Below are positions 3,888 to 25,083 of a stretch of DNA of 27,140 nt, piece after piece. Under the pieces are notes generated by a model. It had not been told where the DNA came from, did no database searches, and was given only the letters and a program-made list of their open reading frames with translations. The stretch lies in the IMG/VR virus record IMGVR_UViG_3300032820_000090, positions 1-27,140 of that record, one strand, 5' to 3'. Position 1 is the first letter of the stretch. The number at the start of each line of letters is the position of its first letter. Made by a program: the position numbers and the translations under genes. This DNA comes from a virus.

Positions 3888-4331
3888 ATGCCAGAGTCAA
3901 AAACAACAAGTACTAAACCACAAGTTTCATTAAAGAGTCTAATGACTCCGAGCAAGACAGTTACAATAGAGTATCCCCGATTTGAGGGAATGACTGTTGA
4001 TTTATGTTATTTAGCACGTGAAGAGCTTGTAAAACTAAGAAAAAGGTGCCTTGGTACTAGATGGGATAAGAAAAATCATCAACCAATTGAAGAATTGGAT
4101 GACGATAAATTTATTGTAGAATACTGTAAAGCAGTTATAAAAGGGTGGAAAGGCTTAAAATACTCATACTTAGAAGAGCTTCTATTAGTGGATATCACTG
4201 GCCTTGATCCAGAAGACACTTTGCCGTTTACTCCGGATAATTCGGAATTGTTGATGAAGAATGCAACAGATTTCGATACTTGGGTAACTGAAACAGTAGG
4301 TGACCTTGAAAATTTTACCAAAAACAAGTAG
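3888..4331 (+). CDS. Tail assembly chaperone, lambda gpG-like (0-frame product)
   Basis: Product of 147 residues ending DLENFTKNK at TAG 4329-4331. It lies between the tube and tape-measure genes, where lambda G and its relatives sit, and has the expected size (about 140). The N-terminus is polar, followed by beta/alpha segments (VTIEYPRFEGMTVDLCYLAREELVKLRKR, positions 3960-4052) and an acidic C-terminal helix. Chaperones of this type bind the tape measure and recruit tube subunits, and are absent from the finished virion. The start has an AAGGA site 11 bases upstream and lies 30 bases downstream of a consensus promoter. The end carries a frameshift signal (4310-4352) that yields a longer GT-like form. 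Sequence similarity alone is weak; context and frameshift make the call strong. Confidence 0.85.
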   Translation: MPESKTTSTKPQVSLKSLMTPSKTVTIEYPRFEGMTVDLCYLAREELVKLRKRCLGTRWDKKNHQPIEELDDDKFIVEYCKAVIKGWKGLKYSYLEELLLVDITGLDPEDTLPFTPDNSELLMKNATDFDTWVTETVGDLENFTKNK

Positions 4332-4741
4332 TTGAAATACAAAAACTACTTGAAAGGTACGTTCAAGAACAAGGTAGCATAGATTTAGATAAATATCTAA
4401 AAATATGTGAACAAATGGGACAAGAGCCTGATCCCGCTAAAATGCCGCTCGACTCTTCGGAATTTCCTGAGGAAGTCCAAGTGGCATTTTTTATGTTCTC
4501 ATTTTTATCAGATAATTGGGACGGTATGTCAGGTAACTATATGGGCAAGGAGTGGTCTAGCTGTCAACATTTATTTGAAGTATATGAAGTAGAGGACCCT
4601 AAAACAGTATTATTTTTTATGAAGCTGTATGAGTATGTATTAGTAAAGTATAGAATGGATAAAGCTGAAGAAAAGCGTAAACAAGAAGAACGTAAATCGC
4701 AGCAAGGGGGTAAAACGTATACCCATAATGTAAGAGGCTAA
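3888..4741 (+). CDS. Frameshifted tail assembly chaperone, lambda gpGT-like fusion
   Basis: The -1 frame is open from 4310 to the stop at 4739-4741 and is best read as a fusion: 143 codons of the G-like gene up to TTT 4314-4316, then re-reading T4316 as the first base of TAC, giving ...ENF-YQKQVVEIQKLL... and 141 further codons, 284 residues in all. The T-like part contains a helical region, the conserved-looking LSDNWDGMSGNYMGKEW segment and a Lys/Glu/Arg-rich end (DKAEEKRKQEERK). An ATG at 4415 exists in this frame but has no ribosome binding site and would cut off about 33 coherent residues, so independent initiation is unlikely. In lambda the T part binds the tube protein while G binds the tape measure. 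The stop overlaps the tape-measure ATG (TAATG). Confidence 0.85.
4310..4352 (+). promoter_or_regulatory. Programmed -1 ribosomal frameshift signal
   Basis: The slippery heptamer A AAT TTT (4310-4316) fits the X XXY YYZ rule in the reading frame of the upstream gene. After an 8-nt spacer (4317-4324) comes a perfect 9-bp stem, CAAGTAGTT (4325-4333) with AACTACTTG (4344-4352), around a 10-nt A-rich loop. The 0-frame stop TAG (4329-4331) lies inside the 5' arm. The -1 frame has a stop TGA at 4307-4309, directly touching the heptamer, so slippage can only be productive at or after this site. Spacer and stem lengths match known signals. Confidence 0.88.
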
Positions 4742-7700: not shown

Positions 7701-8703
7701 TAATGTTGTTAATGCAAAAAACGCAGCAGAGGCGGCTGCAAAGACTTACGATGTCACATACGCCAGAATAAAAGAAGAGTTGGAAACTACCCGGACAACC
7801 AGCGCAGGTCATAGCGGATTGCTTAGTACTCAGGAAAGTCTAGATATAGCTTTAGCAGCGGAAGCGAGGGCGCATTTAGAAGTGGGAACAGATGCAGCCG
7901 CACAGAAGGTTGCAGATACTAACACTGAGTGGGAGGCACATAAAGGGATAGCAGCGACAAAGGTAAAGAGTCTGGAGCATACACTAGAGGAAGCGGAGCT
8001 TGGGCTAGAACTAGTAAACGTGGCTGACCATCTGCTAGAAACAGAAAGACAGATTGCAATATGGAAATTGACAAATGTCGACTATACACAAGCGCAAATA
8101 GACGAGATGCGAAGACTGGCAAATCAAACAAAGAAAGTAAATGAGGCAAAAGACGATTTTGAAACTATGAAGGATTCTATATACCAAGGATTTGAGGGTG
8201 CTTTTGAAAGTCTTATTACAGGAGCGAAAAACGCAAAAGAAGCATTTGCAGATATGGCTAAAAGTATACTACAGGCAATGGCACAAATAATGGCAAGAAA
8301 GATGGCCATGGCCGCGATGGATATGATAGGTATGCCTATGGCAAGGGGGGGTATAACGCCGTCTTATGCTTCAGGAGGATACGCTTTAAATAAACATAAT
8401 TACTCAAGAGGAGGCCCAGCAAGAGGTGCTCAATCTGGTTACGCAGCAATTCTACATGGGAATGAAGCAGTAGTTCCACTTCCTGACAATCGTCATATTC
8501 CTGTAGATATACAAGGTGGTGCAGGCCAACAGAATAATGTAACTATCAATGTGTCTATGGACAATAGTGGTAATAAGTCAGATTCTAATTCAGATAGTAG
8601 GATGGGAGAAAACTTAGGGCGGGTAATTTCTCAAACAGTACAAGAAGAGTTGCAGTATCAAAAGAGATCGGGTGGAATACTAAATCCATATGGGGTAGCA
8701 TAA
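4741..8703 (+). CDS. Tail tape measure protein (lambda gpH-like)
   Basis: Product of 1320 residues, the second-longest gene here. It is predominantly helical, with Ala-, Lys- and Glu-rich coiled-coil stretches (roughly residues 600-1180) and hydrophobic segments at about 80-112 (GLVAVYATLAAQVFAVSAAF), 280-312 (LALFAIPIVKAIIP) and 475-512 (MAGWIGIIVMMAQLG). Hydrophobic segments of this kind in tape measures are thought to help DNA cross the host inner membrane. The C-terminus has the Gly-rich hallmark of lambda-type tape measures (MARGGI, YASGGYA, HGNEAVVPLPDNRHIPV) followed by a polar end. At about 0.15 nm per residue, the known ratio for this family, the tail would be near 200 nm long. No lysozyme or peptidase domain was recognised. 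The start overlaps the upstream stop, and the gene follows the G/GT pair exactly as in lambda. Confidence 0.93.
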   Translation: MAKKNQVYIDIIVDDDGTTKRVAVDAKKLGVELDKSANAADKGAKGTDKLSRSNKNLDRNMRGTAKMSGNQTKEFSKMQQGMGGLVAVYATLAAQVFAVSAAFQFLQSASNIRNLIAGQEALGAVTGTAYKTITSSIIAATDAQINYSDAAKAAAIGTAAGLSAGQLEKLGTVAKHASFALGRDLTDSFNRLVRGVTKAEPELLDELGIILRLETATAKYADSIGVNVNSLTAFQRSQAVANEVLEQGTRKFGAIEAMMTKDAAALAQFTKSFDDLFNTFKTGIINLLGPILQFLSKNTLALTASLALFAIPIVKAIIPNLDTWREKQNKLFMDHQHEAAIYLDKSMEQSKALEQLTDNETKLAAANKKTAEAQKKKTDKGGVGYVSGGAGSPQARAAAKKGLKLAQEDLIKHTQVQRGIFKGYTADEVRMAQMSYNKRTQMAETHTQFVLRKWKQISIGAKIMSASVRASWATMMGSMVALTQAGAAAMQKAMSMAGWIGIIVMMAQLGKQGWDWLHPQSEEAKKAGETLDELSEKYKDLGAEMERAAHARKNFTTGSMDATNIGQVMQSADIPGLVDDLNEMAAMEDKTSEKFKNLYDKLNPVLWQLTKINPEFSRLHHAMHFGLPIQEELKKSLKGIAEGYVEVGSTISNLPELLSKANASFTSLTKSLVKSNPLDQFLTDEKAAIAGLEMDRTAKEEKIGVSKIALDDAKKYEVEQGKIDKRMLAGLKGTHSEAMKLHWAQADEEEKAEIRKGGFNLWGGAAGWRGLGKGIRTDPVQQLDKTEMDAAELELERKHAKNIELENEADAILETRKKRAKVFIKLRSEQLALTRKRMVLEKKSIQNTVLGVTLEGKLHNIAQKRLAGSKAINKAEDMLAIARKVKETESSNLSTLEKQNNADMVTAAEEQLELAQEQEKLNERKRKQKEEDLRLEIAILGVTLAIAANNRSIAASRGTIKKEEAMGGGTWASQGIIHKEQRKILALNVVNAKNAAEAAAKTYDVTYARIKEELETTRTTSAGHSGLLSTQESLDIALAAEARAHLEVGTDAAAQKVADTNTEWEAHKGIAATKVKSLEHTLEEAELGLELVNVADHLLETERQIAIWKLTNVDYTQAQIDEMRRLANQTKKVNEAKDDFETMKDSIYQGFEGAFESLITGAKNAKEAFADMAKSILQAMAQIMARKMAMAAMDMIGMPMARGGITPSYASGGYALNKHNYSRGGPARGAQSGYAAILHGNEAVVPLPDNRHIPVDIQGGAGQQNNVTINVSMDNSGNKSDSNSDSRMGENLGRVISQTVQEELQYQKRSGGILNPYGVA

Positions 8704-9281
8704 TGGCAATCGGATTAATAGTAACAAATATTACTGATAAAGTTATACCTGATAAATCTTTATCTAAAGCTTCTTCACCCACTATATTAGTTGCACAATT
8801 CGGAGACGGGTATCAACAAAGAATAGCAAGTGGGTTAAATTCTATAAAAGAGAGTTTTACTGTTACGTTTAATAACCGTCCTAAAGCAGAAGCAGATGAT
8901 ATTGAAGCATTTTTTAGGGCAAAAAAAGGTATGACTTCTTTTGCCTTTACTTACCCCGATACTAATTCTACTTCAGCAGCTACAGCGGTTACTAGCGGAA
9001 GCCCTGGATCTACAATAAATATTACATTAACTTCTTCAACTAACAACTTAGATATATCTCCAGAAGCAACAGTAACGGGCCAAAGTGTGACTGTAGTTAG
9101 TATTTCAGGCACCGCATTAGTATTAAGTGGGGCAATAAATGTGGCGGCAGATACTACTTTAAATTTTGTTAACCCTAACGAACGAGAAGTGAAAGTAATT
9201 TGTCCAAGCTGGAGCGTTACTTTTTCTAATTCTGACCATTATAATGTAAGTGCAACTTTTGAGAGAGTATACGAGCCGTGA
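8703..9281 (+). CDS. Minor tail protein, lambda gpM-like, with inserted beta module
   Basis: Product of 192 residues. The ends match the M-like minor tail family: AQFGDGYQQRIASGLN (31-46), SFTVTFNNRPKAEADDIEAFFRAKKGMTSFAFTYP (51-85) and the closing VKVICPSWSVTFSNSDHYNVSATFERVYEP pattern (163-192). Lambda gpM has about 110 residues. The excess is one block at about 87-157, inserted where the family normally runs straight from the 'F.W.P' strand into the 'CPSW' strand. The block (INITLTSS, VTGQSV, ISGTALVLSGA, DTTLNF) also occurs in the J-like protein at 14599-14784. M-like proteins join the tip complex to the tube. Start and stop overlap the neighbouring genes (TAATG before, GTGA after). Confidence 0.88.
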   Translation: MAIGLIVTNITDKVIPDKSLSKASSPTILVAQFGDGYQQRIASGLNSIKESFTVTFNNRPKAEADDIEAFFRAKKGMTSFAFTYPDTNSTSAATAVTSGSPGSTINITLTSSTNNLDISPEATVTGQSVTVVSISGTALVLSGAINVAADTTLNFVNPNEREVKVICPSWSVTFSNSDHYNVSATFERVYEP

Positions 9282-10492
9282 GCACCGTAGATACTATAGT
9301 AACAGATGCCCAAGACTTAGAAATAGGTAGCGGGATAGTAGAGTTATATGAGATTGAAATAGGTACAGGTGATGATAATACTTTATACTTTCATCCTGGG
9401 AAAGATTTAGATAATGGTACTACAGATAATGATTTAATATTTGATGGAAACACTTATGTAGCTCTGCCTATTTTTTTAGAGGGAATAGAAAAGTCAGCTG
9501 AAGGAGCGTCGCCACGCCCTACGTTAACATTTGCAAACGTAGAGTCTATTCTTAAAGATAACTCACTCTTTAAAACTCAAATGGATGATGGTACTTGGGA
9601 TGCTAAAATTGATAAAATTGATGTAAATTCGGATAATTTTACTATGGAGAGTTTAATAGGTGCCCGAGTTACTAGAAGAAAAACTTTAGAAAAGTATACG
9701 GGCGATGGGGTAGCAGGCTACGAATTCGGAAAAGAACTATATATAATCGATAGAATATCAAACAAAAGTAATATTTTTATAGAAGTAGAGTTAGCCTCCC
9801 CAATGGATTTAGGGGGAATTAGGCTGCCAAGACGTCAAGTAATTGGAAAGTACTGTCCTTGGGTTTATCAAGGGGGAGAAACTGATATTACTAAAAGTGC
9901 TTGTAATTGGAAAACTCATGAGCAATTCGAGGACAAAGACGGAGCCATTTATAGTTTTTATTTTACAGGAAATGATGAGCCTTTAGTATTAGCTAGTTAT
10001 TTAACCCGAGCGGATGAACAGGTCGGGGAGACATATAACTCCAGTACTCCATATGAAAGGGGGAATATCGTATCCACAGGATCATCTCCATACTTATTTT
10101 GGAGATGTGAAAGAGACGCCCAAGGCGTTGACCCCTCTGACGCTGCAACACAGTGGCAAGCAATAAGAACGTATACCGTATGGAGCGATAGCGTAACCTA
10201 TCCTGTTGATTCAGCAGACTCCAGAAAAAACTCATATGTTAAACATGCCAATACTATATGGAGAGCAGTTAGAGAAAACTCCGGTATAACCCCCGGTACA
10301 AATGAAAGTGCATGGACTAGAGGAGATACTTGTGGTAAGCTACTTAAATCTTGTAAAATCAGGTATCAAGGAATACCGCTTGTCAACGAAGATGATGGCT
10401 CCTATGCTGCTGATGCGATACCTTCTCCCGCAACAGATACAAATGTCCCCTTACCTTTCGGGGCGTTCCCCGGAACTAGGAAGTTCCGTTAA
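9278..10492 (+). CDS. Minor tail protein, lambda gpL-like, with chitin-binding-like insertion
   Basis: Product of 404 residues from a GTG whose last two bases begin the upstream TGA stop (GTGA). Alternative ATGs are more than 100 codons downstream. The core matches L-like tail-tip proteins: an N-terminal beta domain with LYFHPG and LTFANV, a KYCPWVYQGG segment and the end PLPFGAFPGTRKFR. Cys193, Cys209, Cys352 and Cys359 correspond to the four cysteines that hold an iron-sulfur cluster in the gpL family. About 140 residues separate the second and third cysteines, much more than in lambda (gpL has 232 residues). Residues 252-349 of this insert contain two units of aromatic pattern W/Y...Y..G..V...Y.....N.G..P......W, resembling CBM5/12 carbohydrate-binding modules. 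A further Cys277 lies in the first unit. Confidence 0.87.
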   Translation: MSTVDTIVTDAQDLEIGSGIVELYEIEIGTGDDNTLYFHPGKDLDNGTTDNDLIFDGNTYVALPIFLEGIEKSAEGASPRPTLTFANVESILKDNSLFKTQMDDGTWDAKIDKIDVNSDNFTMESLIGARVTRRKTLEKYTGDGVAGYEFGKELYIIDRISNKSNIFIEVELASPMDLGGIRLPRRQVIGKYCPWVYQGGETDITKSACNWKTHEQFEDKDGAIYSFYFTGNDEPLVLASYLTRADEQVGETYNSSTPYERGNIVSTGSSPYLFWRCERDAQGVDPSDAATQWQAIRTYTVWSDSVTYPVDSADSRKNSYVKHANTIWRAVRENSGITPGTNESAWTRGDTCGKLLKSCKIRYQGIPLVNEDDGSYAADAIPSPATDTNVPLPFGAFPGTRKFR

Positions 10493-11190
10493 TGGAGTAT
10501 TTAGACAATATTACAAAACACTTTGAAGAAGAGTACCCCAGAGAGGGCTGCGGTATTCTTTCTGTTGTCAAAGGTAAGAGGGTATGGAATCCTTGTACAA
10601 ATTTAGCAAAAAATGAAGAAGACTTTATACTTGACTCTACCGAGTTCTTAAAAATAAAGAGAACAACAGACATAATAGCAATAGTACACAGTCATCCGGA
10701 TGCAAGTCCAGAACCTAGTGAACTAGATATAAAATATTGTAATACTTTAGGAATCCCCTATTATATCTTTAGCTACCCTGAGATGGAGCTACATATATTA
10801 GAGCCTGAAATTAATACTACTGGCTTATATGGAAGAGAGTATGAATTTGGAGTAACAGATTGCTTTGAGGCTGCTAGGGACTATCTACTTAGTAAGGATA
10901 TAGTTATACCAAAAAGAGCAATGTTCGAAGATGATTGGTGGGAAAAAGGATTAGATTATTTTAACGATGAATTGATTTCTGAATGGAATCACAGCCCTGT
11001 AGAGTTATCGGAAATACAAGCAAATGATGTACTAATTTTTAAAGTTTTAGCAGACACAAATAATCATTGTGGGGTGTATATAGGTAACGACTGTTTTTAC
11101 CACCATGCAAATGAAAGACTGTCTTGTAGAGAGAATTTATACCCTCTATGGCACAAATACTTAGTAGGAGCTTATCGATATGATGCGTAA
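10492..11190 (+). CDS. Tail-tip maturation peptidase, lambda gpK-like (JAMM + NlpC/P60)
   Basis: Product of 232 residues with two hydrolase domains. Residues 1-105 form a JAB1/MPN-type metalloprotease: Glu18 (REGCGIL) and the full JAMM motif H66-S-H68-x7-S76-x2-D79, the zinc ligands and catalytic residues. Residues about 112-232 form an NlpC/P60-type cysteine peptidase: Cys124 in VTDCFEAARDYL, His192 in NHCGVYIG and a third polar residue in YHHANERLS (His204 or His205). Both catalytic sets look intact. In lambda the equivalent protein is needed for tip assembly or infectivity and is not kept in the virion; the NlpC/P60 half resembles peptidoglycan hydrolases. The gene lies between the L- and I-like genes, overlaps the former by one base and the latter by eleven. 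Confidence 0.92.
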   Translation: MEYLDNITKHFEEEYPREGCGILSVVKGKRVWNPCTNLAKNEEDFILDSTEFLKIKRTTDIIAIVHSHPDASPEPSELDIKYCNTLGIPYYIFSYPEMELHILEPEINTTGLYGREYEFGVTDCFEAARDYLLSKDIVIPKRAMFEDDWWEKGLDYFNDELISEWNHSPVELSEIQANDVLIFKVLADTNNHCGVYIGNDCFYHHANERLSCRENLYPLWHKYLVGAYRYDA

Positions 11191-11914
11191 TATATACTTA
11201 GAAGGAGAAATGGGCGAGAAATTCGGAACAGATTTTCAGTTTAATGCTCCTACAGTACAAGATGCTTTAAAATGCTTAGATGCTAATTTTCCTGATATGA
11301 AAAAATATTTTATAGACTGCCATGAGAATGATATAGGGTTTGAAGTAGATGTAGCTAATAATAAATTAGACTATGAGCTGGAAATGCTTATGACTCTTCA
11401 AAAAGGAGATATTACTATTACTCCTGTTCCTGCGGGTTCTAAGTCTGCGGCAGGAAAGATACTTGCAGCGATAGCTATGGTGGTAATAGCAATTTATGCT
11501 CCTCAGTTATTTGGTACTATGGGAACTACAACCGCTAACACGGCGTCGGCAGCTGGCGCAGTTTCGTACGGTGGTACAGCTGGGTTTTTTGGCACTGGAG
11601 GATCAGTCTTGGGGCTATCTACAGCGCAAATAACTATGGGTGCAGGCATGATGGCTGTAAATTTAGGTATGGCTGGAATAAATCAAATGATGGCTCCTGA
11701 TCCTGCTACTGATGGGGATCAAGAATCGTCCTATTTATTTAATGGGGCGGAACAAAATGTAATACAAGGAGACCCAGTACCTGTACTATATGGAACGTTA
11801 AGGGTGCCTGGGCAGCCTATAAGTTTCGAAATTGCAGGAGTAAATGCAAGAATTACCACTTTAGGGTGGGATTCATTTGCAAACAGCTATGCTCCAGTCA
11901 CTAAAGCGGGTTAA
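11180..11914 (+). CDS. Tail assembly protein, lambda gpI-like
   Basis: Product of 244 residues. The first ~95 residues form a ubiquitin-like segment typical of I-like proteins (IYLEGEMGEKFG, APTVQDALKCLDANFP, GDITITPVPAGSKS). A strongly hydrophobic stretch follows (KILAAIAMVVIAIYAPQLF, about residues 95-113), then a Gly/Ala-rich segment (AAGAVSYGGTAGFFG) and a PxLYGxxxVPG region (DPVPVLYGTLRVPGQPISFE, about 205-224) also found at the junction with J-like proteins. It begins inside the K-like gene (11-base overlap); a second ATG at 11183 is an equally possible start. In lambda, gpI is needed for assembly with J, K and L and is not found in the mature tail. The K-I-J order supports the assignment. 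Confidence 0.85.
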   Translation: MMRNIYLEGEMGEKFGTDFQFNAPTVQDALKCLDANFPDMKKYFIDCHENDIGFEVDVANNKLDYELEMLMTLQKGDITITPVPAGSKSAAGKILAAIAMVVIAIYAPQLFGTMGTTTANTASAAGAVSYGGTAGFFGTGGSVLGLSTAQITMGAGMMAVNLGMAGINQMMAPDPATDGDQESSYLFNGAEQNVIQGDPVPVLYGTLRVPGQPISFEIAGVNARITTLGWDSFANSYAPVTKAG

Positions 11915-11937: not shown

Positions 11938-14900
11938 ATGCCCCAACAATCCATAAATGCACTTGATAGACGTCTATACTCCTTAAATAATGACGGCTTA
12001 GCGAGTGCTATTCGTAGGAGTACAGAGCAAACTATACTAGTTGCTGATATGATCTCCGAAGGTCCTATTGAGGGCCTTGTGGGGGGCGGTGCAGGTATTT
12101 TTTTAGAGAATGATGCTCTTCAATCCACCGACGAAACCTCTATGCAGCCTCATAGTGGCGTTAAGGCTAGATTTACTGCAAATAGCGATGAGGTTATTGT
12201 AGACCCGGGAGCCAATACCTTTAACGCTTCTGTAGGGAGTGATGGCACAAAGTATCTCATGGTGTATGGAGTTTATAGTACTTCTGTTACCATGTCCGAT
12301 ATAACATTACCTACTAGTTCTTATACTTATGATGGAAGTCCTTATCAAAATTCAGATTTTCAAGCCGCATTTCAATTACGAATAGTACCAATAGGAGGCA
12401 AAGTTACTCTTACAAAAGTCGTTGGATCAACTGATGATATAGAGGCGTCCTGGGCTCATTCCACCGACAATAGTGGGGCTGCTGTAGTGACGAAAGTGGA
12501 AACTAATGCGGTATTTGTTAATCTTAAGTTGTCTGAAAGCGGGCACGATTTACGAGGGGGCTTAACTGATATTAGTGTAGGACCTCCGAACACTGCAGTT
12601 TTTACTTGGGGAGGACAATTAAATTGGAAGCTGCTAATGTCCGATGCAGACCGAGCAAACGGCGTAGTACATACTTTAGAGGCAGGAATATTTTTAGAGA
12701 TAGAAGAAATAGACGGTAACACTATTACTCTTGCTAGCGCACTGCCAAATGATTGGGTTACAGAGGATTATAGATTTGGTATAACTGCAGCAATACTAGA
12801 TGATGATGCAACCGGATCAGAAAGAGCCCGAATAGAAGAGAAATATCCAAATTCAGGGTGGAGTTTTAACTCAGGTACTATAGATCAATCTCCTATGCCT
12901 ACAATAGAGGGGATAGGGACTTCTTCTGTAGCCTTAACGGTTTCAGATGCAGCACTAAATAGGGATGCATCTAGAACAATTACTGCTTCGGGCGCTCAGG
13001 CTTCTGAGATTGATGAAGTAAAGATTTTAATAAACTACCCAAGTGGGCTATACATTGTCAGTGAAAACAGTGGTACTGAATACCCCGCTGGAGTGGCTTA
13101 TGAAATAGAATTGATGGTTGATAAAGGAGGAGAGGAGGTTTATAATACAATTCCCGGACCTAACGGTACGAAGTTTAACGGTACTCCGGTATGGACTCAT
13201 ACGGGCAAGCATAAAAGTGCTGTACAATTTGAAATGAGACTAAGCTTAGAGCATGAGCAGCCTTTTAATGGATTCAAAATAAAAATAACTAGGTTAACTA
13301 AACATGACCCTGAGGATACAACCGTTATTGTAGGAAATACTTCTGGGGGTGATGTTGGTGCAACAAGTTCTGACTTACATAGTGCAGAACGTAGACACAA
13401 AGGAGTATACACCAGTGTCATTACTAGTGTAATAGGCATAATAAAGGAGAAACTGTCTTTTCCGCATACCGCAATGGCTAATGTAAGTTTTAGTTCAAAA
13501 TCTTTTACCAATGTTCCTACTCGTAGTTATTTATGTCAAGGCTTAAAAATAAAAGTCCCCTCTAATTATGTAACAAGAGAACAAGGAGCTGATGGGAAGA
13601 CTGCTAAGTATACTCGTAACTCTTCGGGGGTAATTACTACTGTAGCTCAATTATGGGATGGAACCTTTTTAGACGATTTAGTGTATACAGATAATCCTGC
13701 CTGGGTATTTTATGATGTATTGACTAATAATAGATATGGTTTAGGAGATTTTTTAGAGGCTCAAGATATAGATAAGTATTCGTTATACAAAATCTCAAAG
13801 TATTGTGATGAATTGGTACCTGATGGAAAAGGGAGTACCGAACCTCGTTTTCGTGCAAATATATATCTTACAAAAGCCACAGACTCTTATAAAATATTGA
13901 AGGATATGGCTACTATATTTAGAGGTATTCTATACTGGACTGATTCCACTTTTAGACCTGTAATTGATCAGAAAACAGAACCGGTTTACAATTTTTCTAG
14001 AAGTAACATAATAGAGGGCTCTTTCAACTATGAAACTACCGGCTCTAAAACTCGTGTAAACCAAATGGTAGTTGAATGGTCAAATCCAGACTCAGACTAT
14101 AAATTAGAGCCTATTATTGTAGAAGATCGGGAAAATCAGAGTAGAACCGGAACAATAAAAAGTGAAAAAGCTGTAGCCTTTGGGTGTACTTCGGAGGGGC
14201 AGGCAATAAGATACGGTCGGTGGAAGCTATGGACAGCACTGAATCAGACAGAAATAGTTAATTTTTCAACTTCTGTAAACGCTGCGTTCTTGTCCCCGGG
14301 GGACGTAGTTAATATTCAAGATGAATCAGACTTTAATATAGCTTTTAGTGGTCGGGTTAACTCTTGTACTACTTCAAATATTACTATCGATAGGGCGATT
14401 TCTTCAGACTTTTCAGGTGGTTACACTTACACCATTGCTGTAGTACTCCCTAAAAGAACAGTACTGCTTAATCAAGATAGTGCTGTAATTGCAGATAATG
14501 GAGGAGGCAGTTCAACTTATACTAGAGGGGATAATATAACTCATGCCACTGTGGGGGGCTCTACTACTGAGCTATTATATAAAACAACTGGAACTGTAAA
14601 TGGTGCTGTAAATAATTCTATAAATGTGACTCTTTCTGCGTCTAATTCTCTCATTAATGTAGGAGATACTATAACAGGCACTTCCGTAGATAACAATATT
14701 ACAGTTGCAGCCATAAGTGGAACTAGTTTAACTTTAAGTGCTGCTCAAACTATTTCAGATACTACTTCTTTAACTTTTGAAAATGAAGATTTAACACGTA
14801 GGCAAATCGAAAGTGCTGTAGATACTACGGGTAATCTACTAAACTTACAGTATATAGCTGAAACAGTAGTAGAAGAAAGAACTCTAACTACTGGAAGTAC

Positions 14901-17900
14901 TACTACAGCGGATGGTCGAGATACTATTCCTATTTCTTCTGCTTTTTCTGTACTTCCTACTAACGGGGATATATGGGCTATAAAACAAATTAGCACTTCG
15001 GGAGAAAAAACATTAGCATCCTATAAGCCGTATAAAATACTAGCAATAGCCGAAAGTGGTGAAGAGCAATATAGTATAGTTGCGGCAGAATATTCTGACC
15101 AAAAGTTTGATTCTGTAGATTCAGAGTTTTCACTAGCATCAGCAGATCCTTTATTTCCCCCAGAAAATACAGAAGAAGTACCGCCTCCTCGTAATTTACG
15201 CATACTGACAGTATCTGATCCGGATCAAAGAGGGGAAGAGGTAGCAGTTGAATGGGACTCCCCCCTTGCTGTAGGCTCCTCGGGGGTTTCCACAACATAT
15301 GAGAATTTAGCAGAATTTAAAGTAGCTCAAACTTTCCATAAGATAGGAGGTTTTGGCGGCGGCATGGGGTTCGGTGGTATGCTAGAATTTCTTAAAGATG
15401 GAATTTCTGTTCCAGCCGAAACGCGATCATTAAAGTATTCTGGAGTTCGAAATGGGAAACATGTAGTAACAGTACAAACTGTTAGTGGGAAAGGAAGAAC
15501 TTCAAAAAAAGTATCCGCAACAATAAATATACGGGATGTTTTTGAAGGGAACTTTCCTCGCTTGGGAGGCTTAGTAAAAGGTGGATATGCTACAAGTGAT
15601 GTAGCCGTAATAGATTCGGGGGCTCAAAAAGGCTCTGTTAAGTTTGGTAAGACTTCTTTGGTGGCCGCTCCTTTACAGGATATAAATAAAGCAAAAAGAA
15701 ATACAAGTGCAGATGCAAATAGCTACGGGCTATCCTGTGTGGCACTGGCACATAGTAGCTGGCCGTATCAAGAGGGTGGAGTTGACTTAGGCTATTTAAT
15801 GATGGACTTTAGTGCCTTTGATGCCGCAAATGGATCAGCTAATGCTCTTAAACTAATAACAAGAAAGGTAGATACTACTACATACGGTAGAAATTTAGAT
15901 TACTGGTATGATGGTATTAAATTCGTGGCAGATGCTGATAGTATTTGGACTAGTTTAGGTACTTGTACAATGACTGAAGGTTCCAGCAAGATTGTAGGTA
16001 CAGGATTCTCTTCTCTAGATATAGGAACAGTAATTACAGTAGGAAGTAGCTATGGTGCAAAAATTGCTTATATAGAAAGTAACACTGTAATGTATGCAGA
16101 CTATCCGTGGGTAGCAGCAACTGCTAGTAGTCAAGCAATAAAAAGACAAGAGTTAGTTATTGATTACGAAGAAGATTTTATAATTGCACCCGTAAGTTAT
16201 AATGCGAGTGGCACAGATTCAGACGGAGGAAGCGGCAAGTATACCTTAGGAGGAGAGAACAATACAATGTCTTTCCTACAGATTACCCCTGAACTCGCTG
16301 GTATAGGTAAAAGTATAGTAGTCACTTCTAGTTTAAGCTTCTTGTCTTATGCAGCGGACGACACACAATTAACTAATATACCTAATACTGGCATAGTATT
16401 GACCGCTGCTGCTATTGGGTGGACTAATCCTGAATTTAAATTTACAGGAACAGGTTTTAGCCAAGTAAATCAAAGTGCAGAAAGTGCTTTTACCACTGGA
16501 ACTGATAATATAAGAGATTTTACAGTACATAATAATTCTGATGATATAGACTATGACGCTCTACCGGCAGATTTTACAGTAACGGTAAGAGAGGCTCTTG
16601 ATCCCGATAATGCAGTTACTACTAAATCCACAGTATATTCTATAGGTAAACTTAAAGAAGGATCACAAGGGGTTTCCGCAGCTGTAGTTTATTTATATAA
16701 AATGGCTGCAAGTATACCAGCAAGTATTGATGATACAACTAGTTTTCCTCAGTTAACGGTATCTATGACCACTGGTAAAATTATAGATGCTGCAGGATAT
16801 AGCATAAGCAGTAATCAAATTATGGATAGTACAGGGGGAGGAACCGGATGGTATACTGTAGTAACAGATACTAGTGTAACTGATGGAGTACAGTGGGTTT
16901 CCGCTGCTACTGCTAGCAGTACAGCAACTGCTGATACAATTGCTAGAACAGAATGGACAGATCCTGTACAGTTTAGTGGTTCGGCAGGAACCTCTGGTGT
17001 AAGTAGTGCTATTGCGGAACTTTATCAACGAACTAATAGTACTAGTGCGCCTGCTGATCCTGACCAGACTCTTACTTATACTTTTGCAACAGGTGTTTTA
17101 GCAAACAGTGCAGGAGGTACTTCAGGAACAGGTTTCAACAGTTGGGTTAAAGATGCTACTAGCCCAATTGAAAGTGCAAAATACTTATGGAAGATAACTG
17201 CCCCTGCTATAGCTACTGGAGCTACGGATACTATTACCTCTGCGAATTGGGCTGCTGCTATAATAGCAGCCCAATATGGTGCTGAGGGGGACCCCGGAGT
17301 AGCAGGTAAGCAAACTTTTAATAGCACCATGTATTATGGTAGTGGTGTAATTTCTGGTGCTAGCGCTCCTTTGGAACCTGCAGATTCTGGAACTTTTACT
17401 TTTTCAGGTCAAACATTTGGAACAACTAATGCTAACGTTAGTGACACTTCAGCGGCTTCTAAATGGTCTCTTGTCGCGCCTACTTTCGCCCCTTATGATG
17501 GTAGCGATAATAAACTAGTTTGGTATGCTTGTTCAGTGAAAGTTGAAGAAACTACTGCTGGGGGAGGCATAGGTACTCCAGATTTTTCAAATGTACATAT
17601 TGTACATAATTTCTTTGGAGTTGTGGCTTTTACAGATTTAAGCGACCCTGATAGTGATATTACAACAATTCATGGAGGTCATATTACTACAGGTACTATA
17701 CAAGGGCCTAACTTTGGATTAGCTACTCCAAATGGCAGTACTGATAGAGGTATGAAAATTATCTTAGCTCCTGGCAACGATAGTAATTCAACTACAACAA
17801 TTATGGAAGCAAGAGCCCAAGGAGCTACTTCATTTAGCTTAAATGAAAAGGGAGACGCATACTTTGCTGGAGAAATTGCTTCAGGAAAATTTTCGGGAAC

Positions 17901-18021
17901 AGGCAATGCTACTGGGTCAATAACAGTGGGGAGTGGAAATGTTATTATAGACGGAGATGATGAGCAAATTCGAATTAATGACGGTCAATATGATAGAGTA
18001 ATTTTAGGCAAGTTAAGCTAG
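11938..18021 (+). CDS. Central tail-tip / host-specificity protein, lambda gpJ-like
   Basis: Product of 2027 residues, about 1.8 times lambda J (1132). The start follows an AAAGGAA site. The N-terminus has the family motif LVADMISEGPIEGLVGGG. Residues about 585-800 form the J core ('phage-tail_3' type): AWVFYDVLTNNRYGLG, ILKDMATIFRGILYW and FLSPGDVVNIQDE. A beta module at 888-949 is shared with the M-like protein. A fibronectin type III-like unit spans about 1083-1202 (RNLRILTVSD, GEEVAVEWDSP, KHVVTVQTVSG) with a Gly/Met-rich loop at 1137-1148. Two tandem units of about 105 residues begin at 1578 and 1687 (GVSAAVVYLYK and GVSSAIAELYQR). The end is beta-rich (GGHITTGTIQG, IDGDDEQIRIND). It would form the tip cap and central spike that contacts the receptor; fibres could attach to its distal part. 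Confidence 0.93.
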   Translation: MPQQSINALDRRLYSLNNDGLASAIRRSTEQTILVADMISEGPIEGLVGGGAGIFLENDALQSTDETSMQPHSGVKARFTANSDEVIVDPGANTFNASVGSDGTKYLMVYGVYSTSVTMSDITLPTSSYTYDGSPYQNSDFQAAFQLRIVPIGGKVTLTKVVGSTDDIEASWAHSTDNSGAAVVTKVETNAVFVNLKLSESGHDLRGGLTDISVGPPNTAVFTWGGQLNWKLLMSDADRANGVVHTLEAGIFLEIEEIDGNTITLASALPNDWVTEDYRFGITAAILDDDATGSERARIEEKYPNSGWSFNSGTIDQSPMPTIEGIGTSSVALTVSDAALNRDASRTITASGAQASEIDEVKILINYPSGLYIVSENSGTEYPAGVAYEIELMVDKGGEEVYNTIPGPNGTKFNGTPVWTHTGKHKSAVQFEMRLSLEHEQPFNGFKIKITRLTKHDPEDTTVIVGNTSGGDVGATSSDLHSAERRHKGVYTSVITSVIGIIKEKLSFPHTAMANVSFSSKSFTNVPTRSYLCQGLKIKVPSNYVTREQGADGKTAKYTRNSSGVITTVAQLWDGTFLDDLVYTDNPAWVFYDVLTNNRYGLGDFLEAQDIDKYSLYKISKYCDELVPDGKGSTEPRFRANIYLTKATDSYKILKDMATIFRGILYWTDSTFRPVIDQKTEPVYNFSRSNIIEGSFNYETTGSKTRVNQMVVEWSNPDSDYKLEPIIVEDRENQSRTGTIKSEKAVAFGCTSEGQAIRYGRWKLWTALNQTEIVNFSTSVNAAFLSPGDVVNIQDESDFNIAFSGRVNSCTTSNITIDRAISSDFSGGYTYTIAVVLPKRTVLLNQDSAVIADNGGGSSTYTRGDNITHATVGGSTTELLYKTTGTVNGAVNNSINVTLSASNSLINVGDTITGTSVDNNITVAAISGTSLTLSAAQTISDTTSLTFENEDLTRRQIESAVDTTGNLLNLQYIAETVVEERTLTTGSTTTADGRDTIPISSAFSVLPTNGDIWAIKQISTSGEKTLASYKPYKILAIAESGEEQYSIVAAEYSDQKFDSVDSEFSLASADPLFPPENTEEVPPPRNLRILTVSDPDQRGEEVAVEWDSPLAVGSSGVSTTYENLAEFKVAQTFHKIGGFGGGMGFGGMLEFLKDGISVPAETRSLKYSGVRNGKHVVTVQTVSGKGRTSKKVSATINIRDVFEGNFPRLGGLVKGGYATSDVAVIDSGAQKGSVKFGKTSLVAAPLQDINKAKRNTSADANSYGLSCVALAHSSWPYQEGGVDLGYLMMDFSAFDAANGSANALKLITRKVDTTTYGRNLDYWYDGIKFVADADSIWTSLGTCTMTEGSSKIVGTGFSSLDIGTVITVGSSYGAKIAYIESNTVMYADYPWVAATASSQAIKRQELVIDYEEDFIIAPVSYNASGTDSDGGSGKYTLGGENNTMSFLQITPELAGIGKSIVVTSSLSFLSYAADDTQLTNIPNTGIVLTAAAIGWTNPEFKFTGTGFSQVNQSAESAFTTGTDNIRDFTVHNNSDDIDYDALPADFTVTVREALDPDNAVTTKSTVYSIGKLKEGSQGVSAAVVYLYKMAASIPASIDDTTSFPQLTVSMTTGKIIDAAGYSISSNQIMDSTGGGTGWYTVVTDTSVTDGVQWVSAATASSTATADTIARTEWTDPVQFSGSAGTSGVSSAIAELYQRTNSTSAPADPDQTLTYTFATGVLANSAGGTSGTGFNSWVKDATSPIESAKYLWKITAPAIATGATDTITSANWAAAIIAAQYGAEGDPGVAGKQTFNSTMYYGSGVISGASAPLEPADSGTFTFSGQTFGTTNANVSDTSAASKWSLVAPTFAPYDGSDNKLVWYACSVKVEETTAGGGIGTPDFSNVHIVHNFFGVVAFTDLSDPDSDITTIHGGHITTGTIQGPNFGLATPNGSTDRGMKIILAPGNDSNSTTTIMEARAQGATSFSLNEKGDAYFAGEIASGKFSGTGNATGSITVGSGNVIIDGDDEQIRINDGQYDRVILGKLS
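17246..17275. repeat. 11-bp perfect inverted repeat inside the J-like gene
   Basis: ATTGGGCTGCT (17246-17256) and AGCAGCCCAAT (17265-17275) are exact reverse complements with an 8-base spacer (GCTATAAT). The stretch is coding (NWAAAIIAAQ), so part of the symmetry could arise from alanine codons. No T run follows, so it is not an obvious terminator. Confidence 0.7.
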
Positions 18022-22072: not shown

Positions 22073-22462
22073 ATGTTTTATGCAAATTTAGATGATCAAG
22101 GCGTTTGTATCGGTATTAGTAATGTTACTTCTACAATTGATGACTCCGCTTATATAGAAATTCCTAGCTATGATCAAAGCTACTTAAGAAGGAAGTATGT
22201 AGGCGGGGCTTGGACTGCCGAAGTAGTGCCTTTACAAGCCTATAAAGCAGCCCTTGTTGATACTACTCCAGAATCTGGTGCAGTAGAAGAACCTGTAGAA
22301 GAACCAAGAGATTGGCGGAACAGCGAACTTTCTAGAACAGATATTCTTATGTTACTACCAGACCATCCTGATAAAGATAATTTAACAACATACAGACAAG
22401 AACTCAGGGATTGGCCTAGCACTGGAGACTTTCCAGGTACAAAGCCGACTTTAGGAAGCTAA
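22073..22462 (+). CDS. Tail fibre assembly chaperone-like protein (copy 1)
   Basis: Product of 129 residues with an AGGAG site at 22059-22063. The N-terminal ~70 residues (MFYANLDDQGVCIGISNV, YIEIPSYDQSYLRRKYVGGAW) form a small beta domain typical of phage fibre assembly proteins. After an acidic Pro/Glu linker (EEPVEEPR) comes the C-terminal motif WRNSELSRTD...PDHPD...LTTYRQELRDWPSTGDFP, which matches the phage tail assembly chaperone C-terminal family (APC type). Such proteins help fold or trimerise a neighbouring fibre or adhesin. A paralogue at 24787-25083 shares the last ~40 residues almost exactly. The final codons (LGS) encode an AGGAAG sequence that serves as ribosome binding site for the next gene. 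Confidence 0.72.
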   Translation: MFYANLDDQGVCIGISNVTSTIDDSAYIEIPSYDQSYLRRKYVGGAWTAEVVPLQAYKAALVDTTPESGAVEEPVEEPRDWRNSELSRTDILMLLPDHPDKDNLTTYRQELRDWPSTGDFPGTKPTLGS

Positions 22463-23530: not shown

Positions 23531-24787
23531 ATGGCAATATTAGGAAAAAGTAATGACTCAATATTTATGGAGCGAATATTTTCGCGTTCCACAACATGGT
23601 CCCCGCCCTTTGATTGCCGAGCTTATGTAACAGTTATAGGTGCAGGAGCTTCAGGAGCTTCTGCTAGAAATACTTCTGATAATAGAGCAGGGGCTGCTTC
23701 TGGTGGAGGCGCAGGGGGTTGTGGTAAAAGTTTGTTAAGACTAGATTCCTCTGTGACTTATTATATTACTATCGGTGCTGGAGGAACTTCTGTGACTGGT
23801 ATCACGGGCACCGCATTTGGTGTGGACGGGCAGAAGAGTGTTTTTGCTGATGGCAACGACCCTGACGCGGATGCCATAATAACAGCTACCGGAGGTATTA
23901 AAGGCATTCAAGCAGTAGCTGCTGATGTAGTAGCTACCCAAGCTGGAGGTGTTGGAGGATCAGCTACCGGAGGTAATATATGGAATGTCACTGGAGGTGC
24001 TGGAGGTAGCGCAACGGTTTCTTGGTACGAAGTAGCTGGAATTCATAACGCCGCTGCTGGTGGAGGTGCCCCAGGCATTTTAGGAGAGTCATTTAGAGGT
24101 GGAAATGCCTTATTAAGTGTCGATGGCTATAATAAATATGCTGCCACAGGAGGTGGTGGTGTAGGGGGTAGAGGTGGAGATGCTACTTTATCAGGAGGCC
24201 ATACGAACTATGCTATGACTCAAGGCGGTTCTGGAGACCACGATGGTGATGATGTTAGTCATGCAACTGCTTCAACAGGAAAGGGCTGCTGGAACTGGGC
24301 TACTGACGGTGATAATCCAGTTCGGAATAAGTGCTATGATTTGACTGCAAGATTAGGTATTAATGCAGCGGGTAGGGGGGTTTCCGGTGCATATAATGGG
24401 ACTACCTACGAGAAGTGGAAGGACGCCGCACAAGCAAGTTCGGGTAAAGCCGCTAGTATTTTTCATGGTTTAACTGGTCAAGGTGCAACTAGAACACAAG
24501 GAGATCATTATTCGTCTGCTGGCCCCGGTGCTGGAGGAGGAGGCTACGCATACTACGCAATTGATTGGACCTATACGTATATGTCCCCCGGCCTTTTTGG
24601 CGGTGGTGGTGGCGGTATTCCTAACTACGCAGATTCTACCTATAGTACTAATATTGGCTACTCAGGAGCGGGCAGCTTTGGTGCTGGAGGCGGGGCTATT
24701 GCGGGCTATGCCAGTAGTTCTAATGCTCATAATTCCGGTACTGGTGGCGCTGGTTTAGTTGTTGTAACGATTTTGGAGGCGCTGTAA
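23531..24787 (+). CDS. Glycine-rich tail adhesin / receptor-binding protein
   Basis: Product of 418 residues with very high Gly content in at least nine clusters, for example GAGASGASA, ASGGGAGGCG, GGVGGSATGGN, VTGGAGGSA, AAAGGGAPG, GGGGVGGRGGDA, GPGAGGGGYA, FGGGGGGIP and GAGSFGAGGGA, ending NSGTGGAGLVVVTILEAL. Between clusters lie variable segments rich in Tyr, Trp, Asn and Asp (CWNWATDGDNPVRNKCYD, YAYYAIDWTYTYMSP). This alternation resembles Gly-rich adhesins such as gp38 of T2/S16-like phages, which pack Gly motifs as polyglycine-II helices and use the loops to bind receptors. The N-terminal ~50 residues (FMERIFSRSTTWSPPFDCRAYVTVIGAG) probably anchor it. Its next gene is an assembly chaperone. 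The adhesin role is inferred from composition and context. Confidence 0.72.
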   Translation: MAILGKSNDSIFMERIFSRSTTWSPPFDCRAYVTVIGAGASGASARNTSDNRAGAASGGGAGGCGKSLLRLDSSVTYYITIGAGGTSVTGITGTAFGVDGQKSVFADGNDPDADAIITATGGIKGIQAVAADVVATQAGGVGGSATGGNIWNVTGGAGGSATVSWYEVAGIHNAAAGGGAPGILGESFRGGNALLSVDGYNKYAATGGGGVGGRGGDATLSGGHTNYAMTQGGSGDHDGDDVSHATASTGKGCWNWATDGDNPVRNKCYDLTARLGINAAGRGVSGAYNGTTYEKWKDAAQASSGKAASIFHGLTGQGATRTQGDHYSSAGPGAGGGGYAYYAIDWTYTYMSPGLFGGGGGGIPNYADSTYSTNIGYSGAGSFGAGGGAIAGYASSSNAHNSGTGGAGLVVVTILEAL

Positions 24788-25083
24788 TGAGTATTTATCG
24801 TGTGACAGATAGTGATGGTAACATCAGCAGAATAGTAGCCTCAGAAGAATTTGCTAAAGCACAATATGCCAGCTATGAGCTAGAGGTTGCTCCAGATGCA
24901 AGTGACTTAGAAATTGCACAGGCTGAAAAAGAGTGGAGAGATCAAGAATTACAACAAACAGATTGGATAGCCCAAACCCCTGACTATCCGAATCGTGATG
25001 CATACCTCACATACAGACAAGAATTAAGAGACTGGCCTAGTACTGGAGACTTCCCCGATACAAGACCGACTGTAGGGAGTTAA
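24787..25083 (+). CDS. Tail fibre assembly chaperone-like protein (copy 2)
   Basis: Product of 98 residues that starts on the last base of the adhesin stop (TAATG). The N-terminal ~50 residues (MSIYRVTDSDGNISRIVASEEFAKAQY) differ from those of copy 1 at 22073. The C-terminus WRDQELQQTDWIAQTPDYPNRDAYLTYRQELRDWPSTGDFPDTRPTVGS (24937-25080) matches it closely, so the two genes share the APC-type domain but have swapped front parts. The DNA differs at many synonymous positions, pointing to an old duplication. The placement directly behind the Gly-rich adhesin suggests that this copy serves the adhesin or the following fibres. The last codons (GTA GGG AGT) provide a GGGAG ribosome binding site for the gene at 25085. 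Confidence 0.72.
   Translation: MSIYRVTDSDGNISRIVASEEFAKAQYASYELEVAPDASDLEIAQAEKEWRDQELQQTDWIAQTPDYPNRDAYLTYRQELRDWPSTGDFPDTRPTVGS

Follow-up and report, generated by a model that had tools for sequence, protein, structure and literature searches.

A lambda gpL-like tail tip protein, encoded by an uncultivated, probably marine phage, contains two tandem units that fold like CBM5/12 (chitin-binding type 3) domains, lodged between the second and third of the four conserved cysteines that are predicted to hold its Fe-S cluster. The source is an IMG/VR virus record of 27,140 bases, the whole of which was analyzed and is referred to here as the window. The homology to gpL, the conservation of the cysteines, the point of insertion, the tandem repeat and the fold were all computed. 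In the reading that we prefer, the units would form arms at the tail tip that make weak contacts with glycans of the host surface. Of the initial annotation of this protein, the gpL identity, the insert and its two units of CBM5/12 fold have stood, whereas the sequence motif that it quoted for them and the aromatic strip that it envisaged have not.

The tail tip locus and the gpL homolog

The gene in question (9278..10492, forward strand) has a GTG start, codes for a protein of 404 residues and overlaps by four bases the end of the preceding gene, which specifies a gpM-like minor tail protein (8703..9281, forward strand; PF05939, E 1.7e-23). Downstream of it lie the genes for a gpK-like protein with JAB and NlpC/P60 domains (10492..11190, forward strand; PF14464, E 2.4e-15, and PF00877, E 2.6e-10), for a product at the I position that has no Pfam match (11180-11914), and for a gpJ-like central tail protein of 2027 residues (11938..18021, forward strand; PF13550, E 6.3e-22), which matches gpJ homologs of phages with E-values down to 6e-68. 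PF05939, PF05100, JAB plus NlpC/P60 and PF13550 are thus encountered in succession, in the gene order M-L-K-I-J. The protein itself matches PF05100 (Phage_tail_L) with 80.2 bits (E 1.7e-22), well above the Pfam cut-off of 25 bits, as well as the minor tail protein family PHROG 18 (E 2.9e-35). Profile searches recovered lambda gpL (8iyk_L, E 6.7e-14), and the PDB entries matched in this way are the hub chains of lambda, T1, the F2-pyocin and gp21. The location of the gene between the gpM-like and the gpK-like and gpJ-like genes, taken together with these family matches, identifies its product as the gpL of a lambda-type tail tip hub, in line with the designation as L-like given in the initial annotation.

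An N-terminal, HDI-like hub body (residues 1-192; 9278..9853, forward strand) can be aligned with the hub chains of lambda gpL, the F2-pyocin, T1 and gp21. It is followed by the four cysteines predicted to serve as Fe-S ligands, namely Cys193 in the context KYCPW (9854..9856), Cys209 in ACxW (9902..9904), Cys352 in DxCGK (10331..10333) and Cys359 in SCK (10352..10354), all on the forward strand. These residues are invariant in an alignment of 20 relatives, and their lambda counterparts are Cys173, Cys182, Cys205 and Cys212, respectively (PMC10721106). A [4Fe-4S] cluster is known in lambda gpL and its homologs, according to work cited in PMC10721106. With the gpL proteins of lambda and phage T1 (PF05100; 8iyk, 9l9p) the present protein shares, besides homology and the four cysteines, the M-L-K-(I)-J gene order and a spacing of 7 between the third and fourth cysteines, which is constant in 55/55 representatives and also seen in lambda (205/212). 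The remaining spacings differ: Cys1 and Cys2 are 16 residues apart here versus 9 in lambda gpL, and Cys2 and Cys3 are separated by 143 residues as opposed to the 23 between Cys182 and Cys205. A fifth cysteine, Cys277, which belongs to the first of the inserted units, is limited to near relatives.

The L, J and tape-measure proteins have no close relatives among cultured phages. Cellular genome collections yielded two matches, in a MAG labelled Euryarchaeota and in a Porticoccaceae MAG, and naming a host from these was rejected as too weakly founded. One relative with 58% identity (L113, PBHZ01000026.1) is encoded on a contig binned in a Euryarchaeota-labelled MAG; this is probably a mis-binned phage contig.

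Two features elsewhere in the window are recorded here in their own right. The open reading frame at 3888-4331, which occupies a gpG-like position, bears ACCAAAAACAAGTAG at its end (4310-4340), from which the -1 frame continues without a stop into the open reading frame at 4415-4741; a lambda G/GT-type -1 frameshift ahead of the tape measure gene would be expected to show this combination. Downstream of the fibre-like genes, the short proteins encoded at 22073-22462 and 24787-25083 have a common C-terminal half (73 aligned residues, 48% identical, E 4e-24), with the end TYRQELRDWPSTGDFP(G/D)T(K/R)PT(L/V)GS; they may be attachment proteins or fibre chaperones that arose by duplication.

Two CBM5/12-fold units in the Cys2-Cys3 loop

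In typical gpL proteins, as sampled from eight cultured phages, the separation of Cys2 and Cys3 is mostly 22-23 residues, compared with the 143 found here. The segment ending in FYFTGNDEPLV, within residues 226-240 (9953..9997, forward strand), is the counterpart of a YFDxNDxP-like segment that follows Cys2 in several insert-free gpL proteins of cultured phages; the comparison was made by eye and covered S-H1, KBS-S-2A, 48ST307, Silvergun and Kintu, and also single-unit relatives. The additional stretch of about 110 residues (roughly 243-351) is situated between this segment and Cys3. Within it lie unit 1 (residues 251-298; 10028..10171, forward strand) and unit 2 (residues 300-351; 10175..10330, forward strand), both with a CBM5/12-like fold. 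Unit 1 conforms to the pattern Y-x(5)-V-x(9-11)-W-R-x(8-9)-P-x(6)-W, whereas unit 2 displays a longer stretch between the Y and the V and carries an additional conserved segment, D-x-R-[KR]-[NS]-x-Y-V, in which D314 shows a conservation of at least 90%.

Searched with the unit-1 profile, the protein's own unit 2 reaches 21.3 bits, versus a maximum of 10.0 bits over 1986 shuffled sequences, and profile-profile comparison relates the two units with a probability of 96%; on the strength of these two results the tandem repeat exceeds chance. The reverse test is weak, in that the unit-2 profile gives the protein's own unit 1 a score of 10.0 bits, which 1 of 1959 shuffles also reached. No further CBM units were detected with either unit profile in the other reading frames of the window. 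These results agree with the earlier placement of two units at residues 252-349, between the second and third of four cysteines (Cys209 and Cys352), but a motif of the form W/Y-G-V-Y-N-G-P-W, by which they had been described, is absent from the protein on searching by eye.

The assignment of the units to the CBM5/12 fold derives from relatives and profiles, the protein's own sequence scoring nothing: neither the gpL sequence nor its insert matches PF02839 in Pfam at E <= 10. In the direct Pfam and PHROG search of the insert, which returned no CBM match, a match to Exo5 lay below the cut-off and was set aside as spurious. PF02839 does match inserts at the same position in 12 of 22 relatives at E <= 10, and four of these (L084, L073, L098 and L078) pass its gathering score of 26.2 bits, with 28.4, 29.6, 27.9 and 30.3 bits. 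The comparison with this family that had been proposed for the protein came out negative for its own insert and positive for those of the 12 relatives. When run against the PDB, the two-unit profile retrieved the CBMs of a Vibrio chitin-oligosaccharide deacetylase (E 7e-6); the unit-1 profile retrieved the chitin-binding domain of ChiA1 (1ed7, E 1.1e-4) as well as a chitinase (4txg, E 0.002), and the unit-2 profile a Vibrio chitin-oligosaccharide deacetylase CBM (E 1.5e-6). Furthermore, a profile confined to distant relatives (<35% identity) gives unit 1 a score of 27.6 bits versus a shuffle maximum of 10.5 bits.

Structure prediction points the same way. AlphaFold2, applied to the insert alignment alone, produced a model with a pLDDT of 87, for which the top Foldseek and VIA matches are CBM5/12 domains of chitinases and CBM5/12-like domains of phage tails. 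The first places in VIA go to CBM5/12 chains, which superpose at 0.8-2.7 Å over 41-54 residues with Z about 6-7.2; unit 1 matches the ChiC CBM with Z 7.2 (47 residues, 2.0 Å) and unit 2 the MmChi60 CBM5 with Z 6.8 (41 residues, 0.9 Å, 29% identity). All of these Z-scores are below 8 and weak taken alone, but they are consistent with the independent sequence profiles. The initial annotation had looked to a beta-sandwich as the mark of the fold; the fold that it proposed is supported by profiles and prediction alike, and it was the mark that had been wrongly chosen, since CBM5/12 domains adopt a small sheet fold with the L shape of a 'ski boot' (PMC8449059).

The absence of a PF02839 match to the insert itself at E <= 10, combined with VIA Z-scores under 8, is what could be expected if an aromatic-rich beta loop unrelated to CBM5/12 resembled these domains by chance. 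Such a chance resemblance is already contradicted by the relatives that surpass the Pfam gathering score, by the two unit profiles that independently find CBM5/12 chains in the PDB, by the shuffles that fall short of the unit-1 and distant-relative profile scores and by the CBM5/12 chains that fill the top structure matches, and we regard it as extremely improbable. Though diverged, the units genuinely belong to the CBM5/12 fold. They share this fold and its core Tyr and Trp positions with the domains of ChiA1 (1ed7), ChiC (1wvv/2d49), MmChi60 (4hmc) and the Vibrio deacetylases (9jeo/4nyy), and with the last of these also the tandem arrangement. From the chitin-binding domains of PF02839 they are distinguished by the missing ligand aromatics, by the extra DxR[KR][NS]xYV of unit 2 and by their setting in a viral tail protein. 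The model of the whole protein is poor in the vicinity of the cysteines (pLDDT <50 at 174-225 and 352-380), and consequently does not predict the pose of the inserted arm on gpL.

Distribution and evolution of the insert

A scan of viral contigs with the insert only recovered just five near relatives. When the insert of a CBM-rich relative was searched against cultured phages, no gpL was returned, and the four weak matches were in unrelated proteins, namely a tailspike and the products of unannotated genes. In a maximum-likelihood tree built on the gpL body upstream of Cys2, the insert-bearing proteins split from the cultured-phage sequences, which include S-CBS4 with its unrelated insert, with a support of 100/99. 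Within the insert-bearing group, proteins with one CBM-like unit and four longer forms group together (100/99), as do the two-unit proteins (94/81). The one-unit clade, in which Cys2 and Cys3 are 76-100 residues apart, includes the protein of the Porticoccaceae MAG; the single-unit inserts have no match in Pfam, and it is the unit profiles that relate them to the CBM-like units. On the single-unit branch there are gpL-like open frames of 570-913 residues (L156, L161, L171 and L172) with Cys2-Cys3 separations of 184-194. Some two-unit relatives add beta-rich segments, extending this distance to 213-353 residues.

The insert occurs in every member of its clade. Among the two-unit relatives the mean pairwise identity is 34% for unit 1 and 41% for unit 2, versus 52% for the body, and the divergence of the insert tracks that of the body (r 0.53 and 0.75); it is thus inherited with the gene rather than often swapped. 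The gpL homolog of Synechococcus phage S-CBS4 (L115), gp36, carries a different insert, about 260 residues long, at the corresponding place after Cys2 and before Cys3, indicating that this loop accepts unrelated domains.

A separate observation concerns a beta-module of about 65 residues (centred around VxxISGTxLxLSxAxxIxxxTxLxF) that is common to the M-like (8982-9176, residues 94-158) and J-like (14587-14784, residues 884-949) proteins of the window, which are 38% identical over a stretch of 68 residues (E 4e-9). In five gpL relatives (L005, L018, L019, L081 and L085) it recurs within the CBM insert, in unit 1, and it looks like a mobile tail decoration.

A comparable interruption is known from two other tail tips. 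In the hub protein of RcGTA (Rcc01696), the ion-binding domain (residues 143-167 and 250-263) is divided by an oligosaccharide-binding domain (168-249; PMC7296036), and in that of roseophage R4C (vBDshSR4C_014) the ion-binding parts 142-161 and 244-266 flank an inserted domain at 162-243 (PMC10276861). In both, as here, a putative glycan-binding domain splits the ion-binding domain of an Fe-S hub, the glycan binding being the inference of those authors from the fold (PMC7296036, PMC10276861). The inserts are of different kinds: that of RcGTA and R4C is OB-like in fold and about 82 residues long, whereas the present one consists of tandem CBM5/12 folds that are not OB-like. The same small fold, often in tandem, is also present in tail proteins of the Agrobacterium phages Milano (8fqc) and 7-7-1 (9rkv) and of cyanophage A-1(L) (8kec), and in many BFVD entries for viral tail proteins that are named CBM5/12 or ChiA1-BD. 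The named phage proteins with CBM5/12-like domains are fibre, baseplate or other proteins, with no recognisable gpL-type Fe-S hub among the matches listed. The literature searched likewise contained no CBM-bearing gpL protein, which is not proof of absence. The combination was found neither there nor among the cultured phages; each of its elements, a widespread tail-domain fold and a known insertion hot-spot, was already known.

The ligand site and the role of the insert

The known binding determinant of CBM12 is Trp687 of ChiA1, which in the alignments stands two positions ahead of the conserved proline. This position is taken by V284 in unit 1 and by I337 in unit 2; across the two-unit relatives it is aromatic in 0/26 scorable copies of unit 1, while in unit 2 it is F or Y in 6/35 copies and W in 0/35. 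In CjCBM5 the ligand is held by the aromatic pair Y282-W283 and a third aromatic residue, with Y265 and W299 belonging to the core (PMC8449059). The pair corresponds to R279/D280 in unit 1 and to R332/E333 in unit 2, and is aromatic in none of the 35 two-unit relatives. As far as can be judged from alignment, the aromatic residues that the units do possess (Y259, W275, W293, W302, Y308, W328 and W346) mostly occupy fold-core positions. The aromatic binding strip once attributed to the insert is not supported: the chitin-contact aromatics are missing in both units, and nearly family-wide.

With the canonical contact aromatics absent, chitin binding through the known surface is unlikely, and from the sequence chitin binding by the two units appears unlikely in general; the fold may contact another sugar or may only serve as structure. 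The nearest solved relatives are chitin-binding CBM5/12 domains, and on that ground one could envisage a tip that binds chitin on particles or on crustacean or diatom surfaces and so brings the phage to chitin-attached hosts. The conversion of the CBM5 Y-W/W-W pair and the CBM12 Trp687 to R/D, R/E, V and I, and the loss of the pair in 35/35 relatives, render this very improbable.

We favor a different course, to which we would assign a probability of about 50%. The two CBM5/12-fold units have been inserted into the short Cys2-Cys3 loop of the Fe-S domain in the gpL hub of a lambda-type siphophage tail tip; the cluster would staple the base of the loop, and each of the three gpL copies (the protein is trimeric in lambda) would hold a two-unit arm outward from the tip cone, near the cell surface. 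During tip positioning, these arms could make weak, multivalent contacts with host surface glycans such as capsule, LPS core or peptidoglycan, in the manner of the unrelated OB-fold domain that occupies this loop in RcGTA and R4C; use of the canonical chitin-binding site would be improbable, as this is absent. The faster divergence of the insert relative to the body and the extra modules in some relatives fit the behavior of a region exposed at the surface. Against this reading, the known chitin-contact aromatics are lacking in both units and in nearly all of the family, and the insert is always present and tracks the body, unlike a freely swapped receptor-binding domain.

This constant presence and co-inheritance with the body would suit a structural or docking decoration, in which the units no longer bind sugar and act as a spacer or as a protein contact within the tip, for instance with gpJ or the side fibres. 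Beta-domains in phage tails often serve in this manner, and fibre and baseplate proteins of phages commonly contain the present fold; moreover, all canonical ligand aromatics are lost while the non-CBM residues R297, D314 and R316 are conserved, the D314/R316 segment and R297 having a structural look. One phage CBM that has been tested, from gp80 of cyanophage A-1(L), did not bind its host (PMC10966104), and attachment to host cells is thus not a given for phage CBMs. A purely structural role accords less well with an insert that diverges faster than the hub body, with the exposure of the loop in lambda, and with the different modules that other lineages place there, including the OB domain of RcGTA and R4C to which glycan binding was assigned by its authors. 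We consider such a role quite possible, if somewhat short of probable.

More broadly, the Cys2-Cys3 loop of gpL could be a general socket for exchangeable modules at the siphophage tip, filled by one or two CBM5/12 units, by an OB domain or by some other domain, or left empty. The Fe-S cluster would then staple the insert so that it does not disturb the hub. We put this forward tentatively and think it rather unlikely, but if true it would account for the presence of a conserved cluster exposed at the surface.

The fold alone is no basis for labelling such proteins 'chitin-binding', given that the chitin-contacting residues are gone in these gpL relatives. What emerges is a whole clade of metagenomic gpL proteins with one or two CBM5/12-fold units in a cluster-closed loop. 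Together with RcGTA and R4C, this clade points to the loop as a site of module insertion, and makes the roles of the cluster and of glycan modules at the tail tip testable.
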